Of a stretch of DNA of 37,263 nt, positions 17,171 to 30,193 are shown piece by piece. Each line of letters opens with the position of its first letter. Position 1 is the stretch's first letter. Source of the stretch: a virus; IMG/VR virus record IMGVR_UViG_3300031659_000033, positions 1 to 37,263 of that record; one strand, 5' to 3'. The translations under genes were made by a program, and so were the position numbers. The notes under the pieces were generated by a model. The model saw only the letters and a list, made by a program, of their open reading frames with translations, did no database searches and had not been told where the DNA came from.

Positions 17171-17171
17171 A

Positions 17172-17623: not shown

Positions 17624-17748
17624 TCTTCGTCTTCCTCATCGTTTAGGTTATCTACTCTGATCTTCAACGCAGTTAAGAGTTCGACCAATTCTGCGCCAAT
17701 CTCTTTATCTTCGTTCGTATCAATACTTACATTAAATTCAATTTTCAT
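17620..17748 (-). CDS. Small acidic hypothetical protein (42 aa)
   Basis: MKIEFNVSIDTNEDKEIGAE, then ELLTALKIRVDNLNDEEDEE. GAGGT lies upstream of the ATG and the stop overlaps the next start. Very acidic C-terminus. Function unknown. Confidence 0.6.
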   Translation of the reverse strand: MKIEFNVSIDTNEDKEIGAELVELLTALKIRVDNLNDEEDEE

Positions 17749-17767
17749 AATTTACCTCGAAGTCAGG

Positions 17768-17902
17768 TTAACCCTGTCCTCTATACTTTTTTAAACTTGC
17801 CCTCTTCGATTTATTCATCGAGGACGTCTTTACATTTTTATTGCCCTGAGAGGTCTTTTTATTGACCGGCTCTGGGCGCCATCCGCCTACTGCTTTTGCC
17901 AT
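17768..17902 (-). CDS. Small basic conserved phage protein (44 aa)
   Basis: MAKAVGGWRPEPVNKKTSQG, then KTSSMNKSKRASLKKYRGQG. The C-terminal MNK.KR.S.K.YRGQG block recurs in T4-like marine phages as I recall. The strong positive charge suggests nucleic-acid binding or packaging with the DNA. An exact late-promoter motif lies about 100 nt upstream within the metallopeptidase gene, so late expression is possible. Confidence 0.65.
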   Translation of the reverse strand: MAKAVGGWRPEPVNKKTSQGNKNVKTSSMNKSKRASLKKYRGQG

Positions 17903-17912
17903 ATCCTTTCTC

Positions 17913-18347
17913 CTAAGAAATTTCCATATCAAAAGGAAAGCATTCAATAAACAGCGTCTTCTCTAGCCTTTCAGCTTCCTTTTCCCATGGTTGGTTTTCA
18001 TATTTATATCCACCAGCATTACGCTTTTTCCACTTGAAATCGCCATGCTGATTGTATCCCAATTCGCCACGCATATATTGCTTAACGTGTACGAGTTCGT
18101 GAGCTAAGGTCTGCATCTGTTCTAAGAACGTCTGGCTTACACCATTCGACTTCCTAGCAATAGATACTTGAGCGACATCTTTAACTCCGAAACATAGCCC
18201 TAAAGCCTCATCATCTAACGAGGTTTTGAAATCAATAATAATCGATCTCTTCGTCAGGCGATGAAGCTTTAGGGCTTTAATGACCATAGCAACATAATGA
18301 TCAACAACTAATTTATTCTTGTGTCTACCTAGAATGTAGTATTCCAT
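17913..18347 (-). CDS. HExxH zinc metallopeptidase-like protein (144 aa)
   Basis: MQTLAHELVHVKQYMRGELG carries the HExxH zinc motif (His83, Glu84, His87), with WEKEAERLEKTLF downstream offering a third Glu ligand. This is the compact gluzincin/SprT-like layout seen in several phages. The protein is cytoplasmic, without signal peptide, and the target is unknown. The start is the ATG at 18345-18347 with AAGGA 6 nt upstream. Confidence 0.8.
   Translation of the reverse strand: MEYYILGRHKNKLVVDHYVAMVIKALKLHRLTKRSIIIDFKTSLDDEALGLCFGVKDVAQVSIARKSNGVSQTFLEQMQTLAHELVHVKQYMRGELGYNQHGDFKWKKRNAGGYKYENQPWEKEAERLEKTLFIECFPFDMEIS
18001..18008 (-). promoter_or_regulatory. Possible late promoter TATAAATA within a gene
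   Basis: An exact TATAAATA on the minus strand, 99 nt upstream of the 44-aa basic gene. It may be a chance match in coding sequence. Confidence 0.35.
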
Positions 18348-18526
18348 CAAAGGTCCTTAGATTGATCAATAAGCTTTGGTAGTGCCCAAAACATAAGCCC
18401 CAATCCAAAAAGTGCTAGTAGTAGAGTCTGCATCAAAGGAGGAGCAGTTATCCCTGCTTCCATTGCGTAGTCATCTTGCCCTACGGCACCCATTAAAATA
18501 AGCATACCTAATATAAATCTAATCAT
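18347..18526 (-). CDS. Two-helix small membrane protein (59 aa)
   Basis: MIRFILGMLILMGAVGQDDY has a first hydrophobic segment, possibly a signal sequence, and a second helix follows (TLLLALFGLGLMFWAL). GAGG precedes the ATG, which overlaps the previous stop (TAATG); its own stop overlaps the next start (TTGATGG region). Function unknown. A small two-helix protein in a spanin-bearing operon could be a holin, but this is a guess. Confidence 0.6.
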   Translation of the reverse strand: MIRFILGMLILMGAVGQDDYAMEAGITAPPLMQTLLLALFGLGLMFWALPKLIDQSKDL

Positions 18527-18720
18527 TACTTAATCCTCACAATGTACGCTGGCTTACTATTATCAAGAATGAGGTCTTCATTAGTGATAGGCTCTACGTA
18601 GTCTACCCAGACTTCAGCAGGAATTAGATGCTCTTCTCGATAGTCTAAAGCTTCTACTTGGTTGCGGAAGGTCTTAAGAACAGTCATAGCATCATCAGCA
18701 AGATTTCTTAGTACATACAT
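18526..18720 (-). CDS. Small hypothetical protein (64 aa)
   Basis: The start is set at the ATG at 18718-18720 (MYVLRNLADDAMTVLKTFRN) with AAGAGAG upstream; the frame is open to 18741 but that start lacks an RBS. It has an EVWVDYVEPITNEDLILD middle. It is first in the 13.7-18.7 kb operon. Function unknown. Confidence 0.7.
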   Translation of the reverse strand: MYVLRNLADDAMTVLKTFRNQVEALDYREEHLIPAEVWVDYVEPITNEDLILDNSKPAYIVRIK

Positions 18721-18755
18721 AATATATTCTCTCTTAATCATTCAAATCAGATACT

Positions 18756-18783
18756 ATTATAGCAGGTTTGTGTCCAATGTCAA
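18756..18783 (-). promoter_or_regulatory. Sigma70 promoter with extended -10
   Basis: TTGACA (18778-18783), 16-nt spacer ending CCTGC, TATAAT (18756-18761). It heads the long operon down to about 13656. Confidence 0.9.
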
Positions 18784-18791
18784 GCTTTTTC

Positions 18792-19256
18792 TCAAGAAAA
18801 ATCCATATTATCTACAAATTCTGGGTAATCCGGAGATTCTTCACACTTAACGAACTCACCATCTCGGATATTGAACATCTCGAACCCATTACCACGAGTG
18901 TAAGCCCTACCACCATCGATCATCTTACCGTCTATCATAAGACAATCGTGATGTGATTGGCTGTACCACCATTCTCCATCAGAGGACTCTATCATACCGA
19001 AATCATAACTCTCAACTTGATCAGCACCGACTATCATCAGATCACCGATGAAATCAAATTTAACTTGAGTGAATATTCCAAAGTACCTATTACCGAACTC
19101 TGGATGCGGTGTCGATCTAAAGAAGATATCGACTGGTTTGTCACTGACATTCAGATCGGTAGTACATACATACGAAACTGGCACTCCATCTTTTTCCGAA
19201 TAGATGGCACAAACCTTGTCTGTATCAAACCTCGGCGCATGTTTAATTTTCATCAT
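18792..19256 (-). CDS. Hypothetical phage protein (154 aa)
   Basis: The start is set at the ATG at 19254-19256 (MMKIKHAPRFDTDKVCAIYS) with AGGAA upstream; the frame extends to 19316 inside the previous gene. It is a soluble, aromatic, beta-rich protein (YFGIFTQVKFDFIGDLMIVG, GEWWYSQSHHDCLMIDGK). No domain recognised. It overlaps the 81-aa gene end by 14 nt. Confidence 0.7.
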   Translation of the reverse strand: MMKIKHAPRFDTDKVCAIYSEKDGVPVSYVCTTDLNVSDKPVDIFFRSTPHPEFGNRYFGIFTQVKFDFIGDLMIVGADQVESYDFGMIESSDGEWWYSQSHHDCLMIDGKMIDGGRAYTRGNGFEMFNIRDGEFVKCEESPDYPEFVDNMDFS

Positions 19257-19488
19257 GTAGTTTCCTATGTTTAGCCCTTCTTGCGACTGTTGCCTGTACT
19301 CTCTCTCGTCTGGCAACTCGTATGGCTTTTAAACGTTTAACGAAACGTCTGGCTGTTCTAGCGGTCAAGGATCTTCGAAATCTAGATCCTCTATCGGGTC
19401 GAGTAAAAACTGGCTCAATCTGTTCTACGAAAGCACCTTCTTCGTTTGTAGATATCTGCTCTTCATTTACTATTCGGGTCTCTTTCAT
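19243..19488 (-). CDS. Small Arg-rich protein (81 aa)
   Basis: An acidic N-terminus is followed by a very basic region (RGSRFRRSLTARTARRFVKR, then RVARRERVQ), about 25% Arg. AGGAG lies before the ATG. This may bind nucleic acid. It overlaps the membrane-protein gene at its start and the 154-aa gene at its end. Function unknown. Confidence 0.65.
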   Translation of the reverse strand: MKETRIVNEEQISTNEEGAFVEQIEPVFTRPDRGSRFRRSLTARTARRFVKRLKAIRVARRERVQATVARRAKHRKLHDEN

Positions 19489-19642
19489 CGGGATTGCTCC
19501 TATCTAGCTTCCTCTTTTGACGTTCTTCCCACCGAGCTTGCTTGTCTGTCTCTAAAAGATATATGCCATATATGAAAAATATCATTAGACCTATAACAAC
19601 AATACCGACAATGGCTTCTGTTATCATAGCTATGATATCCAT
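19463..19642 (-). CDS. Small single-pass membrane protein (59 aa)
   Basis: MDIIAMITEAIVGIVVIGLM is strongly hydrophobic to about residue 28, followed by a charged cytoplasmic tail (DKQARWEERQKRKLDRSNP). It overlaps the Arg-rich gene by 26 nt in another frame. No convincing RBS; coupling to the 74-aa gene just upstream is likely. Function unknown. Confidence 0.55.
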   Translation of the reverse strand: MDIIAMITEAIVGIVVIGLMIFFIYGIYLLETDKQARWEERQKRKLDRSNPDERDPNSK

Positions 19643-19644
19643 GA

Positions 19645-19869
19645 CTAAATCTTAGGCTCAGTTAATGGTGGGAAGTAAGTGTTCAGCATATCTAGCTGGT
19701 CGTGATACTTAGAGATTTCTGCCAGTTCGGCTTCAATCGACTCTATAAGGTTAGAGTGTTCACCAATACCTACTGAACTCTTAAAGTAAACTTCAACATT
19801 CACTTTGTGTTTTTGTATATGCCCAACTGCGTGGGCACGTAATGCTTCAATCATTTGCGTTCTCATCAT
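19645..19869 (-). CDS. Conserved small phage protein (74 aa)
   Basis: MMRTQMIEALRAHAVGHIQK, then HKVNVEVYFKSSVGIGEHSN and a helical end with SKYHDQLDMLNTYF. This layout recurs in marine T4-like phages as I recall, unassigned. AGAGG lies 5 nt before the first ATG. The tRNA-Arg lies just upstream. Confidence 0.75.
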   Translation of the reverse strand: MMRTQMIEALRAHAVGHIQKHKVNVEVYFKSSVGIGEHSNLIESIEAELAEISKYHDQLDMLNTYFPPLTEPKI

Positions 19870-19893
19870 CTTTTCCTCTTTATATATTACTGT

Positions 19894-19970
19894 TGGTGCG
19901 CCTGAAGAGATTCGAACTCCTGACTTCTTGGTTCGTAGCCAAGTACTCTATCCTACTGAGTTACAGGCGC
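19894..19970 (-). tRNA. tRNA-Arg (anticodon ACG)
   Basis: A full cloverleaf: acceptor GCGCCTG with CAGGCGC, anticodon stem CTTGG/CCAAG with loop CTACGAA, T-arm with GTTCGAATC, and an encoded 3' CCA. It reads CGN Arg codons. Confidence 0.95.
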
Positions 19971-20186
19971 CTTGTTAAAGGTCTGGGTGCTCTTAACGGT
20001 TCTTTGCTGACTAAAGTGATCTATTATGATCATGAACTATAGAGCTCCACGCTTCAGTGCTAACGCATCCCAGAATACGGACTACTGTCATCGGGTAATT
20101 TTTTTGCAGGTGCGACACTGCTTCATCTTCATATGCATTACCATTAGCATACTATTTGGGGGCTACCCAACCGGTTCGGAGAGTGG
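19971..20186. other. Gap of 216 nt between tRNA-Arg and the glycine-zipper gene
   Basis: No gene with a start codon and RBS is visible on either strand. On the minus strand one frame is open for 46 codons between two stops without ATG. The plus strand has an open frame (20026-20220) lacking an RBS. It may be decayed sequence in the tRNA cluster. Confidence 0.5.
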
Positions 20187-20537
20187 CTACTTATACACCG
20201 TTTTACATTGGTGCTTTTGAGTGTAGCTTACAATCACTCGTTCTTTCTTTCGCTCGTTAGCTGTAGTGCCACCTATGATAGCGCCAAGCACCGTCATCGC
20301 ATCATTACCGCTACCGCTACCAAATAAATTACCTATCACTCCGCCAACGACAGCACCGCTAAGTACTTCGCCACCAGAAGCAGGGCGATCTAAGATCCCA
20401 TATACTGGGACATCGACCATACCACATTCTTCGACAGGGTGCAACACTCGTGCTGGACCATTGGTAACACTCGACATTCCTGTAGTCTGACAGCCAGCTA
20501 ATGCTAGTCCCGCTACTACTAATAGAATTGATTTCAT
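20187..20537 (-). CDS. Glycine-zipper lipoprotein, SlyB/17-kDa antigen-like (116 aa)
   Basis: A lipoprotein signal (MKSILLVVAGLALAGCQTTG) with lipobox LAGC, mature Cys at residue 16. The middle holds a glycine zipper (GAVVGGVIGNLFGSGSGNDA, then LGAIIGG), followed by an ERKKERVIVSYTQKHQCKTVY beta end. This is the layout of host outer-membrane SlyB/OsmB/Rick_17kDa antigen proteins. In a phage it may alter the envelope after infection, for instance to block superinfection. Cellular origin is likely, and the role is inferred. It has its own promoter at 20567-20595. Confidence 0.85.
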   Translation of the reverse strand: MKSILLVVAGLALAGCQTTGMSSVTNGPARVLHPVEECGMVDVPVYGILDRPASGGEVLSGAVVGGVIGNLFGSGSGNDAMTVLGAIIGGTTANERKKERVIVSYTQKHQCKTVYK

Positions 20538-20566
20538 ATTACTTCCTCTTTAGTGTTAATGTATAT

Positions 20567-20595
20567 ATTATCGCAGGAAAAGAAGGCTTTGTCAA
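20567..20595 (-). promoter_or_regulatory. Sigma70 promoter with extended -10
   Basis: TTGACA (20590-20595), 17-nt spacer ending CTGC, GATAAT (20567-20572). It drives the lipoprotein gene and probably tRNA-Arg(ACG) with the genes downstream. Confidence 0.8.
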
Positions 20596-20628
20596 GTACT
20601 TTTTCATTTAATTTTAAACTTCTTAATT

Positions 20629-20704
20629 TGGAGCCCAAGATAGGATTCGAACCTACGACATCCTGATTACAAATCAGGCGCTCTACCAACTGAGCTACAT
20701 GGGC
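20629..20704 (-). tRNA. tRNA-Thr (anticodon TGT)
   Basis: Acceptor GCCCATG/CTTGGGC (one T-T mismatch), anticodon stem CCTGA/TCAGG with loop TTTGTAA, T-arm GGTTCGAATCC, encoded CCA. It reads ACA. Confidence 0.95.
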
Positions 20705-20715
20705 ATTTAAAATCT

Positions 20716-20790
20716 TGGTGCGAGGTACAGGATTCGAACCTGTGACCTGGACGTTATGAGCGTCTTGCTCTACCACTAAGCTAACCTCGC
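20716..20790 (-). tRNA. tRNA with CAT anticodon (Met, or Ile2 if modified)
   Basis: Acceptor GCGAGGT/ACCTCGC, anticodon loop CTCATAA, T-arm GGTTCGAATCC, encoded CCA. The anticodon stem has an A-C at its first pair. Elongator Met versus lysidine-modified Ile cannot be told by eye. It lies 11 nt from tRNA-Thr. Confidence 0.92.
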
Positions 20791-20797
20791 ACTATTC

Positions 20798-21211
20798 TTA
20801 ATCTAGTTTCCAAGAAATGTCGGGGCGAGTATCGCCTTTACCATTCCAATGTATCTCACACCCACACTCTTCAATGATGGGAATGATTGCTTTTAAATTT
20901 TCTATGCCTTCTTTGCTACCGTCAAAACAGAACGTACTCGTGTCTTGATCTTCAGGCGAGAATGTTTTCATCGTGCCGTCACCTTCGTACTCATAGTCAT
21001 CAAGTTCTTCATCATCAAGTTCTTCCATCCACTCATCGTTCTCGCAATCTTGTTCGTGGTTGAATAACACTTTAGAGTAGTCTACATCGTCACCATTAGG
21101 CAATGTGTCTGGCAGTGTATCCCAGGCGCAAGTCTGACAGCATAGTTCTGCCCAACCTACGTACCAACCCTCTTGAGTCAGTCGTTCTTCTAGCTTTCTA
21201 AAACCATTCAT
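20798..21211 (-). CDS. Hypothetical acidic protein with Cys cluster (137 aa)
   Basis: N-terminal YVGWAELCCQTCAWD (three Cys in a CC..C cluster), a long acidic middle (EWMEELDDEELDDYEYEGDG) and a C-terminal part with FCFDGSKEGIENLKAIIPII and ECGCEIHWNGKGDTRPDISW. Metal binding is possible. It is followed directly by the tRNA-CAT/Thr pair on the same transcript. Function unknown. Confidence 0.75.
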   Translation of the reverse strand: MNGFRKLEERLTQEGWYVGWAELCCQTCAWDTLPDTLPNGDDVDYSKVLFNHEQDCENDEWMEELDDEELDDYEYEGDGTMKTFSPEDQDTSTFCFDGSKEGIENLKAIIPIIEECGCEIHWNGKGDTRPDISWKLD

Positions 21212-21220
21212 AAAGACTCC

Positions 21221-21472
21221 TTAGTAGATTTCTACACCACTGCAAGCGGCGCTTAACATACCGTCGAAGAATACATCACCGTTGCGCCAGCCAGAAGGTA
21301 CTGTAGGCACACCATCGTTTTCAATAAAGCTTGCCACTAACCTTCGATTAGCAACCATCTCTGCCATACCCTTAACTACCGCATCGCTTGGAGCAAGGCT
21401 TTGAAACATCTCAATGTTATCTGAGTAGTGCTTAACCATGCGCTCAAGTACTGGTATTTCATATCTAATCAT
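21221..21472 (-). CDS. Hypothetical phage protein (83 aa)
   Basis: MIRYEIPVLERMVKHYSDNI is helical, followed by a Gly/Trp-containing end (PSGWRNGDVFFDGMLSAACS). AGAGA lies before the ATG. It is the first gene after promoter 21502-21530. Function unknown. Confidence 0.7.
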   Translation of the reverse strand: MIRYEIPVLERMVKHYSDNIEMFQSLAPSDAVVKGMAEMVANRRLVASFIENDGVPTVPSGWRNGDVFFDGMLSAACSGVEIY

Positions 21473-21501
21473 AATATAGTCTCTTTTGAATTTATGTAAC
21501 C

Positions 21502-21530
21502 ATTATATATGGATCTTAGGCTAAAGTCAA
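21502..21530 (-). promoter_or_regulatory. Sigma70 promoter, AAATAAAGGTTGACT class
   Basis: TTGACT (21525-21530), 17-nt spacer, TATAAT (21502-21507). It drives the 83- and 137-aa genes and tRNAs CAT and Thr. Confidence 0.85.
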
Positions 21531-21550
21531 CCTTTATTTTTGGTGATAAT

Positions 21551-21627
21551 TGGTGTCCCCTGCAAGATTCGAACTTGCGACCCACAGCTTAGAAGGCTGT
21601 TGCTCTATCCAACTGAGCTAAGGAGAC
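21551..21627 (-). tRNA. tRNA-Arg (anticodon TCT)
   Basis: Acceptor GTCTCCT/AGGGGAC (one T-G pair), anticodon stem ACAGC/GCTGT with loop CTTCTAA, T-arm AGTTCGAATCT, encoded CCA. It reads AGA, a rare codon in many gammaproteobacteria. Confidence 0.95.
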
Positions 21628-21642
21628 AAATAAGTTTCTTAT

Positions 21643-21783
21643 TTAGTTAAGTTTGTCCGACCAATACTCTTGGATCAGAACTCTATGATTTATCGTATAC
21701 CAACGGTGTCCAGCATAAGCTTTAACATCATTAGTAACCATATCAACTAGAAGAGGCTTCTCTTCTTTAGTTACAATTTCCAT
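21643..21783 (-). CDS. Small hypothetical protein (46 aa)
   Basis: MEIVTKEEKPLLVDMVTNDV, then KAYAGHRWYTINHRVLIQEY. AGAGGA lies before the ATG. It starts inside the end of the 72-aa gene and is followed by tRNA-Arg(TCT). Function unknown. Confidence 0.6.
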   Translation of the reverse strand: MEIVTKEEKPLLVDMVTNDVKAYAGHRWYTINHRVLIQEYWSDKLN

Positions 21784-21989
21784 TTCTTTCTTTCCTCTAC
21801 TGCATATTGTGCGGCTTGGACATAATCTTTGTCCTCTTCAGACATTATGCTCCAATACTTACTTAGTGTATCGAAAAGATCAGTTACAGCAGAAGCGTTG
21901 TCCGTTAAGTGGACGTTACGCTCCATTCTTTCCTGTAAGAGATCCATTCGGTCTTTGACTTTAACACGAGGCGGAAAACGTTCACTCAT
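21771..21989 (-). CDS. Small hypothetical protein (72 aa)
   Basis: Start at the ATG at 21987-21989 (MSERFPPRVKVKDRMDLLQE), with AGGA 11 nt upstream; an ATG 21 nt earlier has no RBS. It is helical and charged. It starts within the stop region of the 111-aa gene and ends inside the 46-aa gene. Function unknown. Confidence 0.65.
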   Translation of the reverse strand: MSERFPPRVKVKDRMDLLQERMERNVHLTDNASAVTDLFDTLSKYWSIMSEEDKDYVQAAQYAVEERKKWKL

Positions 21990-22321
21990 AGATACAAAGG
22001 TCCTGTCCATTGAATTTTGTAACCACCATCAAGGATATTTCCACGTGGCTTGTTACGAGCAGGAGCATTGTAGCTTGCGGCTTTCAATAGATCGCCTTTC
22101 TTGAACAACTTGTCGTTGTCACCTTTAACGATGAAACCCCATACACTGCCCCTGTTAAGGATCTTAATGTAGGCACGTCCTTCACTGAAGCTTATGCTCT
22201 CGTTGAATTCTTTAATCATACTGACATTGACATCAGACAACTCTTTGGTACCCATTCGGGTAGTCCAGTTGTAATAGTCTGTTTTGATGTTTTCAATTAG
22301 TTCTAGGATTTGGTCATTCAT
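21986..22321 (-). CDS. Conserved phage protein (111 aa)
   Basis: A pattern I recall from other marine phages: SEGRAYIKILNRGSVWGFIV, then KGDNDKLFKKGDLLKAASYN, APARNKPRGNILDGGYKIQW and a terminal TGPLYL. Function unknown. Its promoter-leader (22322-22387) is almost the same as that of the LPD29-like gene at 3123, so the two genes should be expressed alike. Confidence 0.8.
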   Translation of the reverse strand: MNDQILELIENIKTDYYNWTTRMGTKELSDVNVSMIKEFNESISFSEGRAYIKILNRGSVWGFIVKGDNDKLFKKGDLLKAASYNAPARNKPRGNILDGGYKIQWTGPLYL

Positions 22322-22358
22322 AATATAAGTTCTCTCTGTTATTTCATTCTATACAAGT

Positions 22359-22387
22359 ATTATAGCTGGTATTGAAAGCAATGTCAA
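22359..22387 (-). promoter_or_regulatory. Sigma70 promoter, near-copy of the one at 3513
   Basis: TTGACA (22382-22387), 17-nt spacer, TATAAT (22359-22364), then ACTTGTATAGAATGAAATAA, identical to the start region at 3513. Confidence 0.9.
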
Positions 22388-22400
22388 CCTTTATTTTGAA

Positions 22401-22646
22401 CTATTTAAACTGTTTGTTATTGAAGATTTCAACTGCTGATTCGAACAACTCAAAGGCGGCTTGGTCAGTAACAAAGCCCTCTTCTGAAGCGAAGTCCATA
22501 GATGAAGAGGCAAACACTTCATCAGCAATTCCTCCACAAGCGTGAAGCAATATGCCTAATTGTTTGGCATCTGAACTTGAAGCGATGATGTCTCCATCGT
22601 CCCAAAGTTGAATTTTACCGTCTGAGGCGCTTAAATAGTCGATCAT
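22401..22646 (-). CDS. Hypothetical acidic protein (81 aa)
   Basis: MIDYLSASDGKIQLWDDGDI is followed by an Ala/Ser/acid-rich helical part (DAKQLGILLHACGGIADEVF). No known motif. It is a single-gene unit behind promoter 22676-22704. Function unknown. Confidence 0.7.
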   Translation of the reverse strand: MIDYLSASDGKIQLWDDGDIIASSSDAKQLGILLHACGGIADEVFASSSMDFASEEGFVTDQAAFELFESAVEIFNNKQFK

Positions 22647-22675
22647 AGTTTTATCTCTCTCTTGATTACTCTTAT

Positions 22676-22704
22676 ACTATAGACCAATTGGATGGTATTG
22701 TCAA
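22676..22704 (-). promoter_or_regulatory. Sigma70 promoter, AAATAAAGGTTGACA class
   Basis: TTGACA (22699-22704), 17-nt spacer, TATAGT (22676-22681). It overlaps no gene except the adjoining stop codon of the 52-aa gene. Confidence 0.85.
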
Positions 22705-22707
22705 CCT

Positions 22708-22866
22708 TTATTTTGAACTATTTTCATCTTTTTTACAGAGCATATCAGATGCTTTTGTTACCCATATGAAAGGCAATAGACTGTGTACGATAAGTACTCC
22801 AGCTATCGCCCAGGCATGCACCAGGTGTTCCAGGTAAGACATCTGGATCTCTCTCAGATGTTTCAT
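22708..22866 (-). CDS. Small single-pass membrane protein (52 aa)
   Basis: MKHLREIQMSYLEHLVHAWA, then IAGVLIVHSLLPFIWVTKAS forms one helix. AGGGA precedes the ATG, which overlaps the HD-protein stop (ATGA). A longer overlapping frame (22745-22927) is a shadow. Coupling suggests the two proteins may work together, possibly at the membrane. Function unknown. Confidence 0.6.
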   Translation of the reverse strand: MKHLREIQMSYLEHLVHAWAIAGVLIVHSLLPFIWVTKASDMLCKKDENSSK

Positions 22867-23372
22867 TGGTTATCCCTAAACTTCTGAACTGCTTCGTCAA
22901 AGATGTGCTGTGTTCCCATCGCTTCAAGCAACTCTACAGTCTCTTGTTGGAACAGTTCCCAGAACTTAGGGTCATGCTCTTGAATACTGAGGCTGTTGTG
23001 GAACATGTCAAAGGTCTTGATGACCCTAACCATATAAGGAGCTTGGCTCAACCTAGTTTCGCACAACTTCTTTCTAAAGGCTCTGTTACCAACAAAGTTA
23101 GGAGTCTTAGTCAAGTACCAAACACCTTCAGCGATCTCTGCACCGAACCTCTCAAGAATGTTCTCTTCAGTGGCAGGGGTGTCTTCGACGGTGTCATGCA
23201 AAAGAGCGATAGCTATGGCAGCCATAACGAACTCTTCAGGCTCTACTTGCTCATCGAGGTATTCTTCAACAAGATCAGCGACAGCAATTGGGTGCATGAT
23301 GTACTCTTCACCAGTGTACTTTCTTACTTGTCCTTCGTGCATTTCAGTTGCGAACTCTAGTGCTTCAATCAT
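22863..23372 (-). CDS. SpoT/MESH1-like HD hydrolase (169 aa)
   Basis: The HD-domain order of (p)ppGpp hydrolases is present: EYIMHPIAVADL (His27), IALLHDTVEDT (His59-Asp60, Glu63-Asp64) and VIKTFDMFHNSLSI (Asp122, Asn126, equivalent to KLADRxxN). The N-terminal FATEMHEGQVRKYTGEEYI corresponds to FAxxxHxxQxRKxxGxPYI of SpoT/MESH1. The product is a stand-alone hydrolase with no synthetase or TGS/ACT domains. It would cut ppGpp and lift the stringent response during infection. Substrate is inferred from the family. Confidence 0.82.
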   Translation of the reverse strand: MIEALEFATEMHEGQVRKYTGEEYIMHPIAVADLVEEYLDEQVEPEEFVMAAIAIALLHDTVEDTPATEENILERFGAEIAEGVWYLTKTPNFVGNRAFRKKLCETRLSQAPYMVRVIKTFDMFHNSLSIQEHDPKFWELFQQETVELLEAMGTQHIFDEAVQKFRDNQ

Positions 23373-23403
23373 TAACTCTCTCTCTCTCTTGGTTTACTTG
23401 ACT

Positions 23404-23431
23404 ATTATAGCATATCCAACTGGCTTGTCAA
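23404..23431 (-). promoter_or_regulatory. Sigma70 promoter with extended -10
   Basis: TTGACA (23426-23431), 16-nt spacer ending TGC, TATAAT (23404-23409). It drives the HD hydrolase and the membrane protein. Confidence 0.88.
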
Positions 23432-23435
23432 CCCT

Positions 23436-23609
23436 TTATTTCATATTTCGTAGCTTTTCTATCAATTCATTTTGAAGTCGAATCTTCTCTGCCTGCCTTT
23501 CCGAAAGCATAGCTGCCTGCCTTTCGAGTTCCAGATACTGCTCATCTATAGCAGTGGTATGGGTCTTCGACTTGGCTAAGGCGCTCGTAAAGTCTATCAC
23601 GTTACTCAT
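23436..23609 (-). CDS. Small coiled-coil protein (57 aa)
   Basis: MSNVIDFTSALAKSKTHTTA, then a charged heptad-like helix (EQYLELERQAAMLSERQAEK). It resembles the start of the 121-aa protein at 9597 (MANVIDFAAARKK) over the first residues. Function unknown. Its stop lies next to promoter 23404. Confidence 0.6.
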   Translation of the reverse strand: MSNVIDFTSALAKSKTHTTAIDEQYLELERQAAMLSERQAEKIRLQNELIEKLRNMK

Positions 23610-23643
23610 TATATTATCTCCGTTATTGCAGGTTTCTCAGCAC

Positions 23644-23952
23644 TTATCTACCAATGTGTTCAACATCAGTTGATGGTATTACTTGATATGCGCCTTTGTT
23701 ATAAGCAGGAGCAACAGTAAAGTTCTTAGAAGCTTCTTGTTTCCAAGATTGGTCTTCAGCTGGCTGGTACTTAGTACTACCAGAATATGATGGGTACTTA
23801 GCATTGAATGCGTCCATCTGTTGTTCAGCAAATGTCTTCTCTAACACTAGAGGCTGAAACTCAGACTTCGATCTACGCTTAGTTCTAAGTCCTGGAGACT
23901 TTCTCTTGCGACCAGTGTGATCGTACCTAAGTGATCCAATGTAACTATTCAT
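23644..23952 (-). CDS. Conserved hypothetical phage protein (102 aa)
   Basis: MNSYIGSLRYDHTGRKRKSP is basic (RKRKSPGLRTKRRSKSEFQP), followed by FAEQQMDAFNAKYPSYSG and a Gln/Thr-rich end. A similar order recurs in marine T4-like phages as I recall. It could bind nucleic acid. It starts within the end of the 58-aa gene. Function unknown. Confidence 0.7.
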   Translation of the reverse strand: MNSYIGSLRYDHTGRKRKSPGLRTKRRSKSEFQPLVLEKTFAEQQMDAFNAKYPSYSGSTKYQPAEDQSWKQEASKNFTVAPAYNKGAYQVIPSTDVEHIGR

Positions 23953-24121
23953 ATCGTTCTTTATCCTCTAATCTCGCAGGGCGTGTTTCTTCCAGAGACC
24001 GCACTCTATCCTCCAATTGCTGGATATATTTTTCAACCAATTCACGGTCGCATAACGTCTGACAGCAGATAGATAGTTCCTGCTTTGCTTCAACAGCCAG
24101 CGACTTCACTCGGCGAGTCAT
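23945..24121 (-). CDS. Small helical hypothetical protein (58 aa)
   Basis: MTRRVKSLAVEAKQELSICC, then CDRELVEKYIQQLEDRVRSL, predicted mostly coiled coil. The start overlaps the upstream stop (ATGA) and the end overlaps the next gene by 8 nt. Function unknown. Confidence 0.6.
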   Translation of the reverse strand: MTRRVKSLAVEAKQELSICCQTLCDRELVEKYIQQLEDRVRSLEETRPARLEDKERYE

Positions 24122-24309
24122 AATCCAATCCGTGCTTTATAAAGGCTTTTGATATAGTATTTATTCTTACTGAAGAACTGATCTGATGTGTAAGCGACCT
24201 GCTTACCTGTCCAGCTAAAGACTTCATCTCTATGCTCTTCCCAGAGTTGTCTGCAAAACAGACGAAATGGCGAAGGTGTTGGCAACTCTAAAGGCTGTTT
24301 ATGGTCCAT
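24118..24309 (-). CDS. Conserved small phage protein (63 aa)
   Basis: MDHKQPLELPTPSPFRLFCR, then QLWEEHRDEVFSWTGKQVAY and a C-terminal KYYIKSLYKARIGL. I recall similar LPxPxPFRxF...LW proteins in T4-like cyanophages, unassigned. The ATG at 24307-24309 is preferred over an in-frame GTG 6 nt upstream. Promoter at 24342-24370. Confidence 0.72.
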   Translation of the reverse strand: MDHKQPLELPTPSPFRLFCRQLWEEHRDEVFSWTGKQVAYTSDQFFSKNKYYIKSLYKARIGL

Positions 24310-24341
24310 ATGCACTTCTCGTTTTAGTTAGTTAAGTATAT

Positions 24342-24370
24342 ACTATACATGGATATCTTTTAACTGTCAA
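24342..24370 (-). promoter_or_regulatory. Sigma70 promoter, AGTACTTGACA class
   Basis: TTGACA (24365-24370), 17-nt spacer, TATAGT (24342-24347), divergent from the lipase gene. Confidence 0.8.
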
Positions 24371-24379
24371 GTACTTTTT

Positions 24380-24387
24380 TATAAATA
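24380..24387 (+). promoter_or_regulatory. T4-type late promoter TATAAATA for the lipase
   Basis: An exact TATAAATA on the plus strand, 27 nt before the lipase start. AAAGAGGAGAAATT ATG follows. Confidence 0.7.
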
Positions 24388-24406
24388 ATAGCAAAGAGGA
24401 GAAATT

Positions 24407-25177
24407 ATGTCAATAACATCACTATCATTAGCGGGAAGATCGTTACTTTTCGCACAACTATCATCCATAGCATATCTACCACAGGCTAAGGCAACTAAAG
24501 AGGCAAGAGCTTTAGGATTCACTACAACAGAATTCTATAACAAATCAGGCGCTCAAGCATACAGATTTCAAAGTAAGGACGATCTAGTCATCGCATGTAG
24601 AGGAACACAGCCTACAGAATTTGGCGATATCAAGGCCGACCTAAAAGCTTATCCAGTTCTAGCAGAAACTATTTCAAGAGTCCACAGAGGATTCAAAACT
24701 GAAGTGGATGATCTATGGCCGATGGTCACTGAAGACATATCTAGAAAGCAGAATGCTAGTAAGAAACTTTGGTTTTGTGGACACTCTCTAGGTGCGGCAA
24801 TGGCAACAATCATGGCTTCTAGATGTAAGCATGATGGCGAATTGGGTAACCCAGTAATGCTGTTCACTTATGGATCTCCTAAAGTTGGCTGGAAAGGATA
24901 CTGTAATTCGTTAAACGTTGTCCATCACAGATGGAAGAACAACAACGATATAGTTACTACTGTTCCCTTAAGTATGATGGGATATCAACACCATGGTACG
25001 GAACATTATATTAACGCTTACGGTCTGATTCGAAATCCAACAGGATGGCAAAGAGTTAAAGATAAGTTTCGTGGTATGTGGATGGGCATCAAAGAAGGTA
25101 GAATAGATAACTTCTCAGATCATAGCATAGATGAATACATCAAACACATAAGAGATAATCAAGCAGTTATCAAGTAA
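24407..25177 (+). CDS. Class 3 (alpha/beta-hydrolase) lipase (256 aa)
   Basis: The Lipase_3 nucleophile elbow GHSLG is at residues 125-129 (Ser127), followed by TYGSPKVGW, the acid Asp181 in NNNDIVTTVP and His239 in FSDHSIDEYI. FIACRGTQP-like VIACRGTQP (oxyanion region) precedes. The family hydrolyses acylglycerols or phospholipids. There is no signal peptide, so it acts in the cytoplasm or in the virion. It is the only plus-strand gene, has a GAGGAG RBS and a late promoter, suggesting timing with lysis or assembly. It converges with the SET gene, 3 nt apart, with no terminator between. A membrane-damaging role at lysis is inferred. Confidence 0.88.
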   Translation: MSITSLSLAGRSLLFAQLSSIAYLPQAKATKEARALGFTTTEFYNKSGAQAYRFQSKDDLVIACRGTQPTEFGDIKADLKAYPVLAETISRVHRGFKTEVDDLWPMVTEDISRKQNASKKLWFCGHSLGAAMATIMASRCKHDGELGNPVMLFTYGSPKVGWKGYCNSLNVVHHRWKNNNDIVTTVPLSMMGYQHHGTEHYINAYGLIRNPTGWQRVKDKFRGMWMGIKEGRIDNFSDHSIDEYIKHIRDNQAVIK

Positions 25178-25180
25178 TTT

Positions 25181-25483
25181 TTAGAGTTTTTTAAGTTCGT
25201 ATAGGGTGTATGAGCAGGTAAGTTCTTCTCCGGGTTTTATTTCACGTAAAGCGCAGATGAACATTCGACTATCTCTCTGCACCTTGACGATGTTAGGATC
25301 ATCAGAGTGGTTATAGAAACCACCTAACGGAGTTCTATGTAGGGTCTCACCCCAATAAAAGTGAGACATCCCTATCTCAGTTCCTTCCTTGATCTCTTCA
25401 ACAGCCCAGAGTCCTAGACCGTGAATATCGGATCTATCTATCGTAACACTTGATGGTAATGGTAAGTAGGTAAGATCAGTCAT
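25181..25483 (-). CDS. SET-domain protein (100 aa)
   Basis: Core SET motifs: SDIHGLGLWAVEEIKEGTEI (N-terminal), GGFYNHSDDPN (the NHS.xPN pseudoknot) and REIKPGEELTCSYTLYE (GEELxxxY). The domain is the minimal lysine methyltransferase fold, and there are no pre- or post-SET Cys clusters. Viral single-domain SET proteins methylate histones in eukaryotic viruses; the bacterial target is unknown. It overlaps the next gene upstream by 8 nt and is transcribed with the nrdB unit. Confidence 0.85.
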   Translation of the reverse strand: MTDLTYLPLPSSVTIDRSDIHGLGLWAVEEIKEGTEIGMSHFYWGETLHRTPLGGFYNHSDDPNIVKVQRDSRMFICALREIKPGEELTCSYTLYELKKL

Positions 25484-25892
25484 TCTTTAATCCCTTCACA
25501 TGGTTTCTATGAATCTTGCAGTTTATTATTCCGTTGAAATACTCATCAGACAAAAGGACTTCCCTGTCAAACTGCTCCTTAGCTTCTAAGTATCCCATTT
25601 CGCCACGACTGTTGCACAAGTGAATAATCTCTCGCTTAAACGCCGTAGGTCCTTGCTCTTCTACGAGTAGCTTAACTTCTTCGCTTGACCCGTAGTAAGT
25701 CATCCAATCTGACTCTTTGGTTACCTTTCGCTTTCTTGTCTTTCCTTTAAGTGCTGGCAAAGTACGCTTAGACTGAAATAACTTTTTGCCTACGTACTTC
25801 TTGCCATTGTGAAGTTGTGTTATGACGTATACGAATCCCACGTAATCGTCAATCATCTCGCTAGTGAACTCTACTTCGTTTAAGGTCCACAT
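25476..25892 (-). CDS. SegE-like GIY-YIG endonuclease (138 aa)
   Basis: FVYVITQLHNGKKYVGKKLF is a GIY-YIG-like motif (VYV...YVG). DWMTYYGSSEEVKL and an E in YLEAKEQFDREVL complete the layout of T4 SegE-type nucleases. These are mobile endonucleases that cut DNA, or domesticated relatives. The start is the ATG at 25890-25892 rather than a TTG further up. It is placed between the SET and zinc-ribbon genes, all overlapping or nearly abutting, so it behaves as a resident gene. Confidence 0.78.
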   Translation of the reverse strand: MWTLNEVEFTSEMIDDYVGFVYVITQLHNGKKYVGKKLFQSKRTLPALKGKTRKRKVTKESDWMTYYGSSEEVKLLVEEQGPTAFKREIIHLCNSRGEMGYLEAKEQFDREVLLSDEYFNGIINCKIHRNHVKGLKND

Positions 25893-25894
25893 GC

Positions 25895-26059
25895 TCAATC
25901 CCAGGCTTCATCTTCTGTATCCCAATCGCCCATATCATCCTCTTCAATATCGACCTCAGCGCCACAGATGGGGCAAAAAAGTATAGGGTCTTCCATATTG
26001 ATGGTCTCTACTGTACATTCACTATCACAATAACTACAAACTATATCTTGTCTCTTCAT
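25895..26059 (-). CDS. Zinc-ribbon protein (54 aa)
   Basis: MKRQDIVCSYCDSECTVETI, then FCPICGAEVDIEEDD and a very acidic tail. CxxC (CSYC) and CPIC make a typical zinc ribbon. Short acidic zinc ribbons often contact RNA polymerase or bind nucleic acids; the role is unknown here. The start overlaps the dCMP deaminase stop. Confidence 0.7.
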   Translation of the reverse strand: MKRQDIVCSYCDSECTVETINMEDPILFCPICGAEVDIEEDDMGDWDTEDEAWD

Positions 26060-26493
26060 AAATTCTCAACCTCTATTCCGCATGACTTTAGAAATTCTAT
26101 TCCATCGTCAGACTTGTACTTCGTTTTATAATATACTCTAGATATTCCTGTACCGTAAATAAGTTTAGCACATTCTACACAAGGAGCATGAGTTATATAT
26201 ATGTCTGCACCCAAACCGGCTTCGCCTGATCTAGCAAGCTTACTTATAGCGTTAGCTTCTGCGTGTATGACCTCTGCTTTGGTTCTTAGTTTATACGAAG
26301 TAGTTCCATTAGATAACTCTTCGTCTATCTCATCTTCACACGTATTATCCCAGCCTGCTGGCATACCGTTGTATCCGATAGAAATGATTCGATTGTCCTT
26401 TACAACAATTGTCCCAACTTGTAGTCTGACAGCAGTGGACAGAGAAGCGAACCTCTCTGCTGTATCCATATAAGCACTCTGCCATTTATTCAT
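26056..26493 (-). CDS. dCMP deaminase (145 aa)
   Basis: The zinc site is intact: HAEANAI (His77, Glu79) and PCVECAK (Cys105, Cys108) in the chosen frame. The MNKWQSAYMDTAERFASLS start is typical of T4 Cd-like enzymes. The enzyme converts dCMP to dUMP, feeding ThyX for dTMP synthesis. An upstream in-frame start at 26535 overlaps the glutaredoxin gene. It is cotranscribed with glutaredoxin and nrdB. Confidence 0.92.
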   Translation of the reverse strand: MNKWQSAYMDTAERFASLSTAVRLQVGTIVVKDNRIISIGYNGMPAGWDNTCEDEIDEELSNGTTSYKLRTKAEVIHAEANAISKLARSGEAGLGADIYITHAPCVECAKLIYGTGISRVYYKTKYKSDDGIEFLKSCGIEVENL

Positions 26494-26704
26494 ATATGGT
26501 CCACAACTCTTTGTAACCACCAATATGTCGTTCATCGATTCTTACTTGTGGAAAAGACTTAGCATCTGGAAACATCTCCATCATCTCATCACGTGTAAAC
26601 TCTCGATTCAACTGATAGTAGTTGTATTCCAAATTCTTGGATTCACACAGCTTTTTAGCCATGTCACAGTATCCACACTGCTCTTTGCCGTAAATCTCTA
26701 TCAT
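26486..26704 (-). CDS. Glutaredoxin for ribonucleotide reductase, CGYC (72 aa)
   Basis: A compact glutaredoxin: MIEIYGKEQCGYCDMAKKLC, with active site CGYC at residues 10-13, cis-Pro in SFPQVRIDERHIGGYKEL, and no extra domain. It overlaps the nrdB stop by 4 nt (ATGA) and the deaminase by 8 nt, so it probably recycles the reductase's redox cysteines, as T4 NrdC does. Confidence 0.9.
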   Translation of the reverse strand: MIEIYGKEQCGYCDMAKKLCESKNLEYNYYQLNREFTRDEMMEMFPDAKSFPQVRIDERHIGGYKELWTIYE

Positions 26705-27828
26705 AGAGAGAACCCCTTAAATGTGTCAGTGCTGACATCTTGTTTAGTACCACCACTTACGTAACTAGTGATCTCAGTTTCTTGTGGTGCAACTTGAACT
26801 TCTGCCCCGCTAATCCATTTATTAGTCCACGGCAAAGGATTACTAACCTTAGTGTACGGACATTTGAGATTGACGTTGTTCATTCTACGTTGACAGATGA
26901 ATTCGATATAACCATTCAGTAACTCAGTGTTAAGACCGATCATTGAACCGTCTTTGAATAGATACTCTGCCCAAGCTTTCTCCTGATCTACTGCATCAAC
27001 AAACATCTGAATGCATTCATCTTCTGTCTCTTCTGCAATCTTAATGAAGTCTGGGTCATCTTGCTTGAGAACCTTCAGTAGCATTTGAGTAGACGCTAGA
27101 TGTAAGTTCTCATCTCGTGCGATCAGTTTAATGATCTTAGCGTTACCTTCCATCTTCTTCAATTCAGCAAATGCCCATGAACAGGCGAATGACACGTAGA
27201 AACGAACACCCTCTAGAATGTTAACGCTCATCAATGTAAGCCACAACAGCTTCTTCAATTCGTACAGATCAACAACAACTTCTTCACCATTGACTGTATG
27301 TGTGCCGACACCTAATAGATTGTACCAGCTACTCATTGTAATTAGATCATCATAGTACTTCGAGATGTCACCTGCACAGTCCGCAATCTGCTGAACGTCC
27401 ATCATCTCATCGAAGATTTTACTTGGATTACTATACACGTTACGTATGATATGCGTGTAAGAACGTGAGTGAATAGTTTCACTGAACGTCCACGTTTGAA
27501 TCCAATTCTCAATCTCTGGTAAAGATACGATAGGCGAGAATGCTTCTACTGGCGCTCTGCCTTGAACACTATCAAGCAATATCTGTCTCTTTAGATTACT
27601 TGTGAAAATGTGTTGCTCATGCTCAGTTAGCCCACGAAAGTCTTTACTATCTTGGGTAACATCAACTTCTTCTGGTCGCCAAAAGAAACCTAACTGCTTC
27701 TCAGTCAGCTTATCAAACGTTTTGTATTTTAGAGTGTCATATCTCTGGATGGTTGGACCACCGCTTGGATCAAAAAACGCTAAAACTTTAGTATGGTCTG
27801 CCTTGTTGGCAGTATCAAAAACACTCAT
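26701..27828 (-). CDS. nrdB: Ribonucleotide reductase class Ia, small subunit NrdB (375 aa)
   Basis: The diiron ligands and radical tyrosine are visible: LLDSVQGRAP, WTFSETIHSRSYTHIIRN (Glu, His and the radical Tyr in SYTH) and RDENLHLASTQ near the end of the helical bundle. Length matches E. coli NrdB (376). It makes the tyrosyl radical used by NrdA to reduce ribonucleoside diphosphates. The C-terminus ends with TFKGFSL, the NrdA-binding tail. Its promoter overlaps a perfect palindrome (27858-27886). Confidence 0.95.
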   Translation of the reverse strand: MSVFDTANKADHTKVLAFFDPSGGPTIQRYDTLKYKTFDKLTEKQLGFFWRPEEVDVTQDSKDFRGLTEHEQHIFTSNLKRQILLDSVQGRAPVEAFSPIVSLPEIENWIQTWTFSETIHSRSYTHIIRNVYSNPSKIFDEMMDVQQIADCAGDISKYYDDLITMSSWYNLLGVGTHTVNGEEVVVDLYELKKLLWLTLMSVNILEGVRFYVSFACSWAFAELKKMEGNAKIIKLIARDENLHLASTQMLLKVLKQDDPDFIKIAEETEDECIQMFVDAVDQEKAWAEYLFKDGSMIGLNTELLNGYIEFICQRRMNNVNLKCPYTKVSNPLPWTNKWISGAEVQVAPQETEITSYVSGGTKQDVSTDTFKGFSL

Positions 27829-27857
27829 TTATATCCCTCTACAATATGCGTATAGTT

Positions 27858-27886
27858 AATATAACATGCCCCGAAGGGCATGTCAA
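27858..27886 (-). promoter_or_regulatory. nrdB promoter with palindrome in the spacer
   Basis: TTGACA (27881-27886), 17-nt spacer, TATATT (27858-27863). ACATGCCC-TTCG-GGGCATGT (27864-27883) fills the spacer and part of -35: an 8-bp perfect inverted repeat with a UUCG loop. It could be an operator, or a hairpin closing the nrdA transcript. Confidence 0.8.
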
Positions 27887-27889
27887 GTA

Positions 27890-30193
27890 CTATATTTTGC
27901 AAGACTCACAATCTTCGTCATCAATGTCAGATTGCTCCAGTTCGGGCAATTCGCCCATCATTTTACCGACATCAAGTTCGCCTTGACCGTCATTCGTATT
28001 AAAATAATACAACTGCTTACCGCCATACTTGTAGAACATTAGCATGTGTTGTAGCATAGTACTCATAGGAATCTTCTCATCTTCAAAGAAAATGGGATTA
28101 TAACTAGTGTTGATACTAATGCCTTGATCGATATACTTTTGCAGTACTGCCATAATTTTCAAGTAACCCTCTGGAGACTTTTGGTCCCACAATAAGTCGT
28201 ACTTGTTCTTCAGACGCTTGTACTCAGGAACAACCTGCTTCAATACTCCATGCTTTGACTGCTTCACTGATATCAATGAACGAGGTGGTTCAATACCATT
28301 TGTAGCGTTAGCGATCTGTGCTGAAGTCTCTGCTGGCATAAGAGCCATTAGTGTGCTGTTACGAATACCAGTATCTTTCAACTGCTCACGTAATGTTGTC
28401 CAATCCATACGCTCAACGTGTGGAATTAACTCATCTAGGTCTTTCTTGTATGTCTGATTAGGTGTAATACCATGACCATACTTAGTCTCCATATTACCTG
28501 ATGGTGCACCAAACTCTACTGCCAGATCGGCACTTGCTTTGATTAGATAGTATGACCATGCTTCTGCGTACTCATCTACTAACTGTAAACCTTTGCTATC
28601 AATATTCTGATATGTTAGATCATGTTTAGCAAGCCAATAGGCAAAGTTAATAATACCAACACCAAGAGGTCTACGTTTCTCTGTACTCAGTTGAGCGGCA
28701 AGAATAGGATAGTTCTGATAACTCAACAGTGCATCGAGTCCACATACTGCTAAACGACAAACACGTTCAAAGTCTGCTGGTGATTTGATGTTACCCCAGT
28801 TGATAGCACTTAACGTACACAGTGAGATTTCACCTTCTGGATCATCTAATGCCTTAAGAGGCTTAGTAGGTAGATCAATCTCTGCACATAAGTTCGACTG
28901 GCGAATAGGTGCTAACTCAGCAATGAAGCTACCGTGATCGTTTGCGTTATCTACGTTCTGTAGATAGATGCGACCAGTGTTCTTACGCTCTTCCATGAAT
29001 GAACTGAATAGATCACTTGCTTTGACAACCTTCTTACGTAGTCGTGTGTTGCGTTCTGCACGTTCATATAGTTCACGGAACTTATCTTGATCCACAAAGA
29101 ATGCATCGAATAGTCCTGGAACATCACTAGGCGAGAACAATGTAATATCACCACCAGAGATCAAACGCTCGTACATCAATTTATTGAACTGTACACCGTA
29201 ATCCATATGACGAACACGGTTCTCTTCTGTGCCCTTATTGTTCTTCAACACTAACATGTCTTCTACTTCAAGATGCCAGATTGGATAGTAGATAGTTGCC
29301 GCACCACCACGAACACCACCTTGTGAACATGACTTAACAGCAGACTGGAAATGCTTATAGAATGGAATGATGCCTGTGTGAAAAGCATCACCCTTACGAA
29401 TGGGTGAACCAATCGCACGGATGTTACCACCACCAATACCGATGCCAGCTTTCTGACTTACGTATTTCACAACAGATGCCGCAGTAGCATTGATGCTATC
29501 TAAACTGTCATCCGTTTCAATGAGTACGCAACTACTAAACTGTCGCTGTGGTGTACGCACCCCTGCCATAACAGGTGTAGGCAAACTAATGTCGTGCAAA
29601 CTAATAGCATCATAGTATTCCTTTATCCAACTCATTCGTGTGTTTACTGGGTAATCTTGAAACAAAGAACATGCAATAAGAATATAACACATCTGAGGAG
29701 TTTCGAAGATATCGCCACTCACTCTGTTCTGCACTAGATATTTACCACGTAACTGTTCCATAGCTACATAAGTTAGATTCTCATCTCTTTCATGTTTGAT
29801 AAAAGTGTCAATTTTTGCCCACTCTTCATCATCGTATTTTGTAACCAACTCTTCGTCATAGAACCCATTAGCAGTATTCCTATCAACTAACTCTTTAACT
29901 GGACATGGCGTGTATCTGCCATATACCTCTTTACGTAAAGAATAGTTTATAAGCCTTCCACCAACGTATTGGTAGTTAGGAGTTTCTTCGCTAATAAGAT
30001 CAGCGGCTGCCTTGATTAGAGTTTCTTGTATTTCTTTCGAAGTCATTCCGTTGTAGAATTGGATCTGACTCTTAATCTCTACTTCGCTTGGGCTAACACC
30101 AGTTATATCTTCACATGCATGAAATACTACTTTGTGCAACTTCTCGATATCGAGTGCTTCTTTAGTTCCATTTCGCTTATTAACTTGAATCAT
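27890..30193 (-). CDS. nrdA: Ribonucleotide reductase class Ia, large subunit NrdA (767 aa)
   Basis: An N-terminal ATP-cone (VNKRNGTKEALDIEKLHKVV to about residue 90) gives allosteric control. SSCVLIETDDS carries the first active-site Cys, then QSNLCAEIDLPT (Asn, Cys, Glu) and LCTLSAINWG (second Cys). The C-terminal ...ESCKI pair shuttles electrons from glutaredoxin. The ATG at 30191-30193 has AGGA 7 nt upstream and is preferred over the one 18 nt further up. The order nrdA then nrdB, with a separate promoter for nrdB, allows independent control. Confidence 0.95.
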   Translation of the reverse strand: MIQVNKRNGTKEALDIEKLHKVVFHACEDITGVSPSEVEIKSQIQFYNGMTSKEIQETLIKAAADLISEETPNYQYVGGRLINYSLRKEVYGRYTPCPVKELVDRNTANGFYDEELVTKYDDEEWAKIDTFIKHERDENLTYVAMEQLRGKYLVQNRVSGDIFETPQMCYILIACSLFQDYPVNTRMSWIKEYYDAISLHDISLPTPVMAGVRTPQRQFSSCVLIETDDSLDSINATAASVVKYVSQKAGIGIGGGNIRAIGSPIRKGDAFHTGIIPFYKHFQSAVKSCSQGGVRGGAATIYYPIWHLEVEDMLVLKNNKGTEENRVRHMDYGVQFNKLMYERLISGGDITLFSPSDVPGLFDAFFVDQDKFRELYERAERNTRLRKKVVKASDLFSSFMEERKNTGRIYLQNVDNANDHGSFIAELAPIRQSNLCAEIDLPTKPLKALDDPEGEISLCTLSAINWGNIKSPADFERVCRLAVCGLDALLSYQNYPILAAQLSTEKRRPLGVGIINFAYWLAKHDLTYQNIDSKGLQLVDEYAEAWSYYLIKASADLAVEFGAPSGNMETKYGHGITPNQTYKKDLDELIPHVERMDWTTLREQLKDTGIRNSTLMALMPAETSAQIANATNGIEPPRSLISVKQSKHGVLKQVVPEYKRLKNKYDLLWDQKSPEGYLKIMAVLQKYIDQGISINTSYNPIFFEDEKIPMSTMLQHMLMFYKYGGKQLYYFNTNDGQGELDVGKMMGELPELEQSDIDDEDCESCKI

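Follow-up and report, generated by a model that had tools for sequence, protein, structure and literature searches.

The window, a 37-kb virus record in IMG/VR (IMGVR_UViG_3300031659_000033) that we analyzed over its full 37,263 nucleotides, encodes a predicted small alarmone hydrolase (SAH), an assignment of enzyme class that is supported by sequence profiles and by a modeled structure (Table 1). We consider it moderately likely that the protein works as a stand-alone SAH, which would strip the 3′-pyrophosphate from alarmones and keep host transcription and translation running during phage replication.

The hydrolase ORF lies on the minus strand and encodes 169 amino acids, from an ATG at 23372 to a TGA at 22865-22863; the one frame of the plus strand that was translated across this region contained no HD motif. 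The protein matches the Pfam family HD_4 (PF13328) with an E-value of 8.1e-12 (45.6 bits against a cut-off of 27.2) and, among the PHROG families, phrog_990 ("metal-dependent phosphohydrolase") at 6e-29. Residues 4-132 align to positions 1-124 of the 687 in the NCBIfam model spoT_relA, its HD part, at 1.3e-20, the score of 73 bits being far under the cut-off of 499 that belongs to the full-length model. A sequence search of the PDB returned 38 matches. The 22 with E-values of at most 4e-5 were all Rel/SpoT/RelA, MESH1 or SAH-type chains, including Lmo0812; the other 16 (crystallins, EF-G; E-values of at least 0.075) were taken as chance. Taken together, the HD_4, phrog_990 and partial spoT_relA matches and the solved Rel/SpoT, MESH1 and SAH chains indicate an HD domain of the alarmone-hydrolase type. 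A long RSH, with HD, SYNTH and C-terminal domains, is ruled out by the length of the protein and by the restriction of the spoT_relA match to those first 124 positions.

Table 1 Features of the window, with positions counted from its first nucleotide.
Feature	Position	Strand	Evidence
Predicted small alarmone hydrolase (SAH) gene, HD_4; groups with phage SAHs including SSU5 PaSpo	22863..23372	-	Profiles, tree, predicted fold
DUF6356 ORF, 52 aa, one hydrophobic stretch (by eye)	22708..22866	-	Pfam, 1.1e-7
Putative sigma-70-type promoter, TTGACA-16-TATAAT, TG before the -10 box	23431-23404	-	Consensus match only
tRNA-Arg(acg) gene	19894-19970	-	tRNA search
tRNA-Thr(tgt) gene	20629-20704	-	tRNA search
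tRNA-Met(cat) gene	20716-20790	-	tRNA search
tRNA-Arg(tct) gene	21551-21627	-	tRNA search
Class 3 lipase gene	24407-25177	+	Lipase_3, 2.2e-18
SET-domain protein, 100 aa	25181-25483	-	1.4e-12

To compare residues across relatives, we drew on the viral_contigs collection, in which two 7-residue patterns found 484 stretches, 439 of them encoding some relative; the locus analyses used the best 80 of these 439. The motif set covered 82 viral loci on 80 contigs (L001-L004 and L020-L097, with L018 and L019 excluded as copies of L001 and L002). It gave 60 distinct rows, that is 59 distinct viral proteins plus the window, which was swapped in for the identical protein of L001. Residues R17, K18, H27, H59, D60, E63, D64, R97, R100, K101, K119, D122 and N126 are identical in 60/60 rows, the invariance at residues 58-64 being partly forced because LHDTVED had served as one of the two patterns. 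H125 varies in 1/60 rows and N96 in 13/60. The metal/catalytic positions H27, H59-D60, E63-D64 and D122, whose roles we take to be those of RelSeq, are present in all 60 rows, as are R17 and N126, and align with Rel/SpoT. The initial annotation had described all HD motifs as intact, which holds for the metal/catalytic positions and is too strong for the Rel/SpoT segment DRLHNMRT. This segment reads DMFHNSLS in the window protein, with the D and N retained and both arginines lost. SSU5 PaSpo reads DLLDNTSS here, likewise without both arginines. Among the SAHs of phage isolates, the first arginine (after motif D) is absent in 11/11 and the second is present in 3/11 (XacN1, pVa-21 and 201phi2-1). 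Since both arginines are absent, base recognition may differ from that of Rel/SpoT. The residues that set base specificity in these hydrolases are described as not evident, with candidate positions given (PMC7644958), and specificity prediction for a phage SAH is described as hindered by low similarity (PMC12846349).

The hydrolase gene is under purifying selection. In comparisons with diverged relatives, pN was below pS in 14/14 cases (pN 0.20-0.39, pS 0.66-0.90, with dS not computable in 8/14). The same was true of 6 further pairs, the closest of which, L035/L053, has a dS of 0.67 and a dN of 0.10. Over 6731 bases, the sibling contig L001 and the window are separated by 9 mismatches and a single gap (99.8% DNA identity); the hydrolase gene has one synonymous change.

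Judged by its sequence, the hydrolase belongs to a mainly viral SAH clade; for the four members tested, no phage record reaches 60% identity. In a tblastn search of a phage collection (E ≤ 1e-3), 333 of 50,697 records matched the hydrolase, 119 of them with at least 80% coverage and all with less than 60% identity; among the 333 are bacterial contigs filed with the phages, for instance H16 with its Salmonella SpoT. Three records named as Salmonella/Campylobacter phages (OR851528.1, MG065691.1 and MG065686.1; H13-H15) do not differ in identity or query range from the Salmonella chromosomal contigs H16 and H17, and are likely to be host contamination. The best phage record, a phosphohydrolase of Rhizobium phage RHph_X66, is also a phrog_990 protein, with 46.4% identity over 88%. 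The clade members L096, L086 and L058 matched 353, 386 and 65 records, respectively, none at 60% identity or more and with a best identity of 48.9% among the matches listed.

We calculated a tree of 152 rows: the window, 59 viral rows, 11 phage isolates, Salmonella SpoT and 80 genome loci. The phage isolates represent 11 of the 333 matching records. The tree was rooted at its midpoint, with a treekit warning of long branches meeting, and was built without MESH1 rows and without reference rows of other named SAH subgroups, seven SAH subgroups having been defined in 2011 (PMC3153485). All 59 viral rows fall into a single group with the window (96/93). This 60-row group joins 10/11 phage-isolate SAHs, SSU5 PaSpo included, and one Novosphingobium SAH in a group of 71 rows (98/91), outside which SalArash and L104 fall. 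RHph_X66 clusters with Acidovorax phage ACP17 and is not part of the 60-row viral clade. On the opposite side (100/95) are 75 long RSHs, represented by their HD domains, together with 4/6 short cellular rows, which were defined as ORFs of less than 230 aa and include L128, cut by a contig end. Cellular SAHs are thinly sampled, since the genome scan relied on patterns and was capped. One of the phage isolates, Agrobacterium phage OLIVR6 (L012), was entered as the matched stretch and not as the annotated CDS: its (p)ppGpp synthetase/hydrolase CDS is annotated at 2309-2800 on the minus strand and the matched HD frame lies at 2501-2929 on the plus strand, which probably means that the record gives the wrong strand.

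The clade also has a signature, VW[YF][LM]T...GxRxxRK, which occurs in 60/60 clade rows, and the VW[YF][LM]T part in 0/12 of the others tried (11 phage isolates and SpoT). A stricter form, GVW[YF]LTKxPxxVGNRxxRK, occurs in only 28/60 viral rows. The shorter motif G[ND]RxxR is found in 9/11 phage isolates and not in SpoT. We dropped K..D...N..[ST][IL] as a phage-type signature, since Salmonella SpoT fits it too.

The hydrolase matches 171/190 alphaproteobacterial genomes at 1e-12, a set that includes G014, picked as its centre because it carries such a gene. Two genomes, G014 and G078, stand out above the long-RSH background (127-131 bits, frames of 214 and 190 aa). The next match scores 86 bits, and among the matches listed the rest are mostly frames longer than 550 aa; some shorter ones (196-239 aa) occur as well and score up to 78.5 bits. 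The Novosphingobium phage-type SAH (the G014 gene, L098 4905-5411) sits between DNA-ligase-like and nucleotidyltransferase-like ORFs, with a large serine recombinase-like ORF ~2.6 kb upstream (all by eye), and may lie in a mobile element.

Alarmone hydrolases of phages are already in print (PMC7824862, PMC12846349), so this kind of enzyme is known in phages. Relatives are present in many other phages, so the window gene is of biological interest without amounting to a new kind of system. The size of the viral clade and its signature may be new; a literature search, by titles and the beginnings of abstracts, found no paper naming it.

In the reading that we favor, the metal-bound HD site would remove the 3′-pyrophosphate from (p)ppGpp, and probably also act on related 3′-pyrophosphorylated purine nucleotides such as (p)ppApp. 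Alarmones would then be kept from shutting down host transcription and translation while the phage replicates, and it is plausible that the phage lifts the stringent response, as the initial annotation suggested. Activity has been reported for both SSU5 PaSpo and MESH1 (PMC11559606, PMC7644958). PaSpo resembles the window protein in being a phage-encoded single-domain protein of phrog_990 with a GNRxxR motif and no arginines in the D....N.. segment, and falls in the same 71-row group, across long branches. It differs in its sequence (41.5% identity over 82% of the query), in its length (213 aa, with a longer C-terminus) and in lacking the VW[YF][LM]T that precedes G-x-R-x-x-R-K in the window clade.

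PaSpo also brings in a serious rival, since it is reported to remove the pyrophosphate that the toxSAS FaRel2 installs on tRNA (PMC11559606): the window enzyme could mainly undo the products of toxSAS of the CapRel/FaRel type, namely (p)ppApp or pyrophosphorylated tRNA 3′ ends, as a counter-defence. The shared tree group and GNRxxR motif speak for this, as do the co-expression of PaSpo for CapRel purification (PMC9712102) and the alleviation of FaRel toxicity by the SSU5 and PVP-SE1 SAHs (Jimmy et al. 2020, cited in PMC7644958). HD alarmone phosphoesterases of jumbo phages have also been predicted to act against alarmones of the stringent response and of related immune systems (PMC7824862). 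However, an SAH antitoxin is described as neutralizing toxSAS products promiscuously (PMC11782079), so the activity of PaSpo is no proof of its natural purpose. Moreover, an unsystematic look at the alignment noticed no tRNA-specific feature. We hold counter-defence to be possible but doubtful as the main role. A broader form, in which the large, mainly viral clade would be a dedicated anti-toxSAS shield that erases tRNA 3′-end pyrophosphate or (p)ppApp, seems to us slightly more doubtful again; if true, phages of the clade would withstand CapRel-type immunity, in addition to or in place of lifting starvation signaling. Given the kinship with SSU5 PaSpo, two assays on one protein could directly tell relief of the stringent response from a canceling of toxSAS immunity.

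The predicted fold bears on both the enzyme class and the remaining rivals. An AlphaFold2 model, calculated with the window protein aligned to 49 viral relatives, has a mean pLDDT of 94.9 and a pTM of 0.90. Foldseek returned 32 matches at E ≤ 0.001, namely chains of MESH1, SAH, (p)ppApp hydrolase, Rel and SpoT, plus two Lmo0812 chains, the title of which gives no function. The top 25 rows of VIA-align are MESH1, SAHs, (p)ppApp hydrolase, SpoT, Rel, RelA and Lmo0812, with Z from 20.5 to 11.9. Human MESH1 is the best solved match, characterized by a Z of 20.5 and an RMSD of 2.6 over 157 aligned residues; the HD residues are common to the window protein and MESH1 (human, Drosophila), but identity is only ~25%. 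P. aeruginosa SAH (20.1), C. glutamicum RelH (18.6), B. caccae (p)ppApp hydrolase (17.6) and SpoT (16.8) are also among the best rows. The initial annotation had named a SpoT/MESH1-type HD hydrolase and proposed a structural comparison with MESH1, and the HD_4 match, the confident model and its superposition on MESH1 bear that class out. The protein has the RSH-type HD hydrolase domain of an SAH by each of these lines (PF13328, the HD part of spoT_relA, PDB matches and fold). It has the R, H, HD..ED, D and N of the Rel/SpoT HD motifs, and differs from long RSHs in lacking synthetase and C-terminal domains, in the segment after motif D and in its side of the tree.

MESH1 complexes with NADPH (Z 20.5) and PAPS (20.3) are among the best structural matches, and the physiological substrate might be a different nucleotide, for example NADPH, which is the case reported for metazoan MESH1. 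XccSAH is reported to hydrolyze NADPH weakly, but with ~40-fold less efficiency than MESH1 (PMC9765508), and the window protein sits with phage SAHs in a tree that holds no MESH1 row; we regard such a metabolic phosphatase as improbable. Least credible of all is a nucleotide-pool HD enzyme (YpgQ, YfbR, OxsA or DatZ-like) mistaken for an alarmone hydrolase: these share the HD superfamily, appear in the structure list (YpgQ, DatZ and YfbR with Z of 11.8, 9.6 and 9.3) and would suit a window with nucleotide-metabolism genes (NrdA by tblastn, ThyX, dCMP deaminase, and NrdB by eye), but the best SAH rows reach about twice their Z, and RSH/SAH-type chains make up the 22 significant matches of the PDB sequence search. 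The non-alarmone enzymes start at YpgQ, tied with RelA (11.9) and above the Rel chains 24io (11.4) and 5xnx (10.7).

A stand-alone SAH, as we favor, has no synthetase domain, and the earlier statement to that effect was confirmed for this single-domain protein. PF04607 was found in 0/15 records, 14 of them with the hydrolase, and is absent from the window; the control for this search rings in 11/14 genomes. Among the ORFs of the 82 viral loci and the window, SYNTH gave no significant match (best E 0.04, in L071 and L072, against 5.5e-73 for the SpoT control). A toxSAS toxin-antitoxin module was rejected, as no synthetase gene lies beside the hydrolase in the window or the 82 viral loci. MazG (PF03819) was over the cut-off in 0/15 records, with one match under it in G010. 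Most records are fragments, so the absence of synthetase and MazG from them carries little weight. Phage MazG has likewise been proposed to lower (p)ppGpp (PMC3483164), but belongs to another family than the window hydrolase, and cyanophage MazG is reported, in papers citing Rihtman 2019, to be unable to hydrolyze (p)ppGpp. In Pseudomonas phage Adele, an SAH next to MazG has been discussed (PMC12846349). For lowering (p)ppGpp, a true SAH carried by a T4-like environmental phage would be a better candidate than MazG. A scan with the PADLOC defence library gave no family for the hydrolase, and a Cas10d match of the small DUF6356 ORF (0.026) was taken as chance.

The hydrolase gene would be transcribed from a promoter of the host sigma-70 type, which lies within the 63-base gap that precedes the start codon; judged from this consensus, expression is probably early in infection. 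Allowing spacers of 15-19, the window contains 11 perfect TTGACA-N-TATAAT sites on the minus strand and 0 on the plus strand, and 20 Markov shuffles gave a mean of 0 per strand. The hydrolase promoter is thus above chance, yet one of a series. With at most one mismatch, there are 23 sites on the minus strand and 1 on the plus strand, against a shuffle mean of 1.0. The strand bias of the perfect sites is striking, unlike the count in a wider scan of 20000-26000, where 20 promoter-like sites compare with 12.9 (sd 3.8) in shuffles. Of the "own strong early promoter" in the initial annotation, the consensus promoter stands, and a special meaning of it is not supported, given the eleven perfect sites on the same strand. 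These span 2930..32487 with spacers of 16-17, several being followed by similar sequence (ACTTGTAT...AGAGAG), and perhaps represent a shared promoter class of the phage.

The ATG of the DUF6356 ORF overlaps the hydrolase stop codon (ATGA), and the two had been proposed to be coupled. A two-sequence DUF6356 profile run against the ORFs of the 82 viral loci and the window matched only in the window, L001 and L002, that is in 2/82 viral loci. The overlap itself was seen only in the window and its 99.8%-identical sibling L001, which leaves the coupling without support; in L002 the DUF6356 gene precedes the hydrolase gene, from which a further ORF separates it. PF19883 was over the cut-off in 3/14 whole records: G001 (the contig of L002), G008, where the gene is ~18 kb from the hydrolase in contig coordinates, and phage C48C1, which has no hydrolase match. 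We therefore rejected functional coupling, and the small membrane protein of the initial annotation is probably a neighbor and not a functional partner. More generally, no conserved neighbor was fixed among 451 neighbors at 61 loci (a count that includes both the window and L001); the most frequent cluster, resting like the others on crude ORF calls, spans 17 loci at varying positions. In 9/61 loci a lipase-like ORF is found no more than four ORFs away from the hydrolase, on the opposite strand as is the class 3 lipase gene of the window, and ORFs similar to the SET-domain protein are near the hydrolase in 5/61 loci.

The phage encodes a T4 RNase H C-terminal domain, a SegE-type GIY-YIG protein, dCMP deaminase, ThyX, PhoH, Cpn10 and NrdA, a gene content that suggests a T4-like myovirus. 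It also carries four tRNA genes, two of which are overlapped by a listed ORF at 20534-20776.
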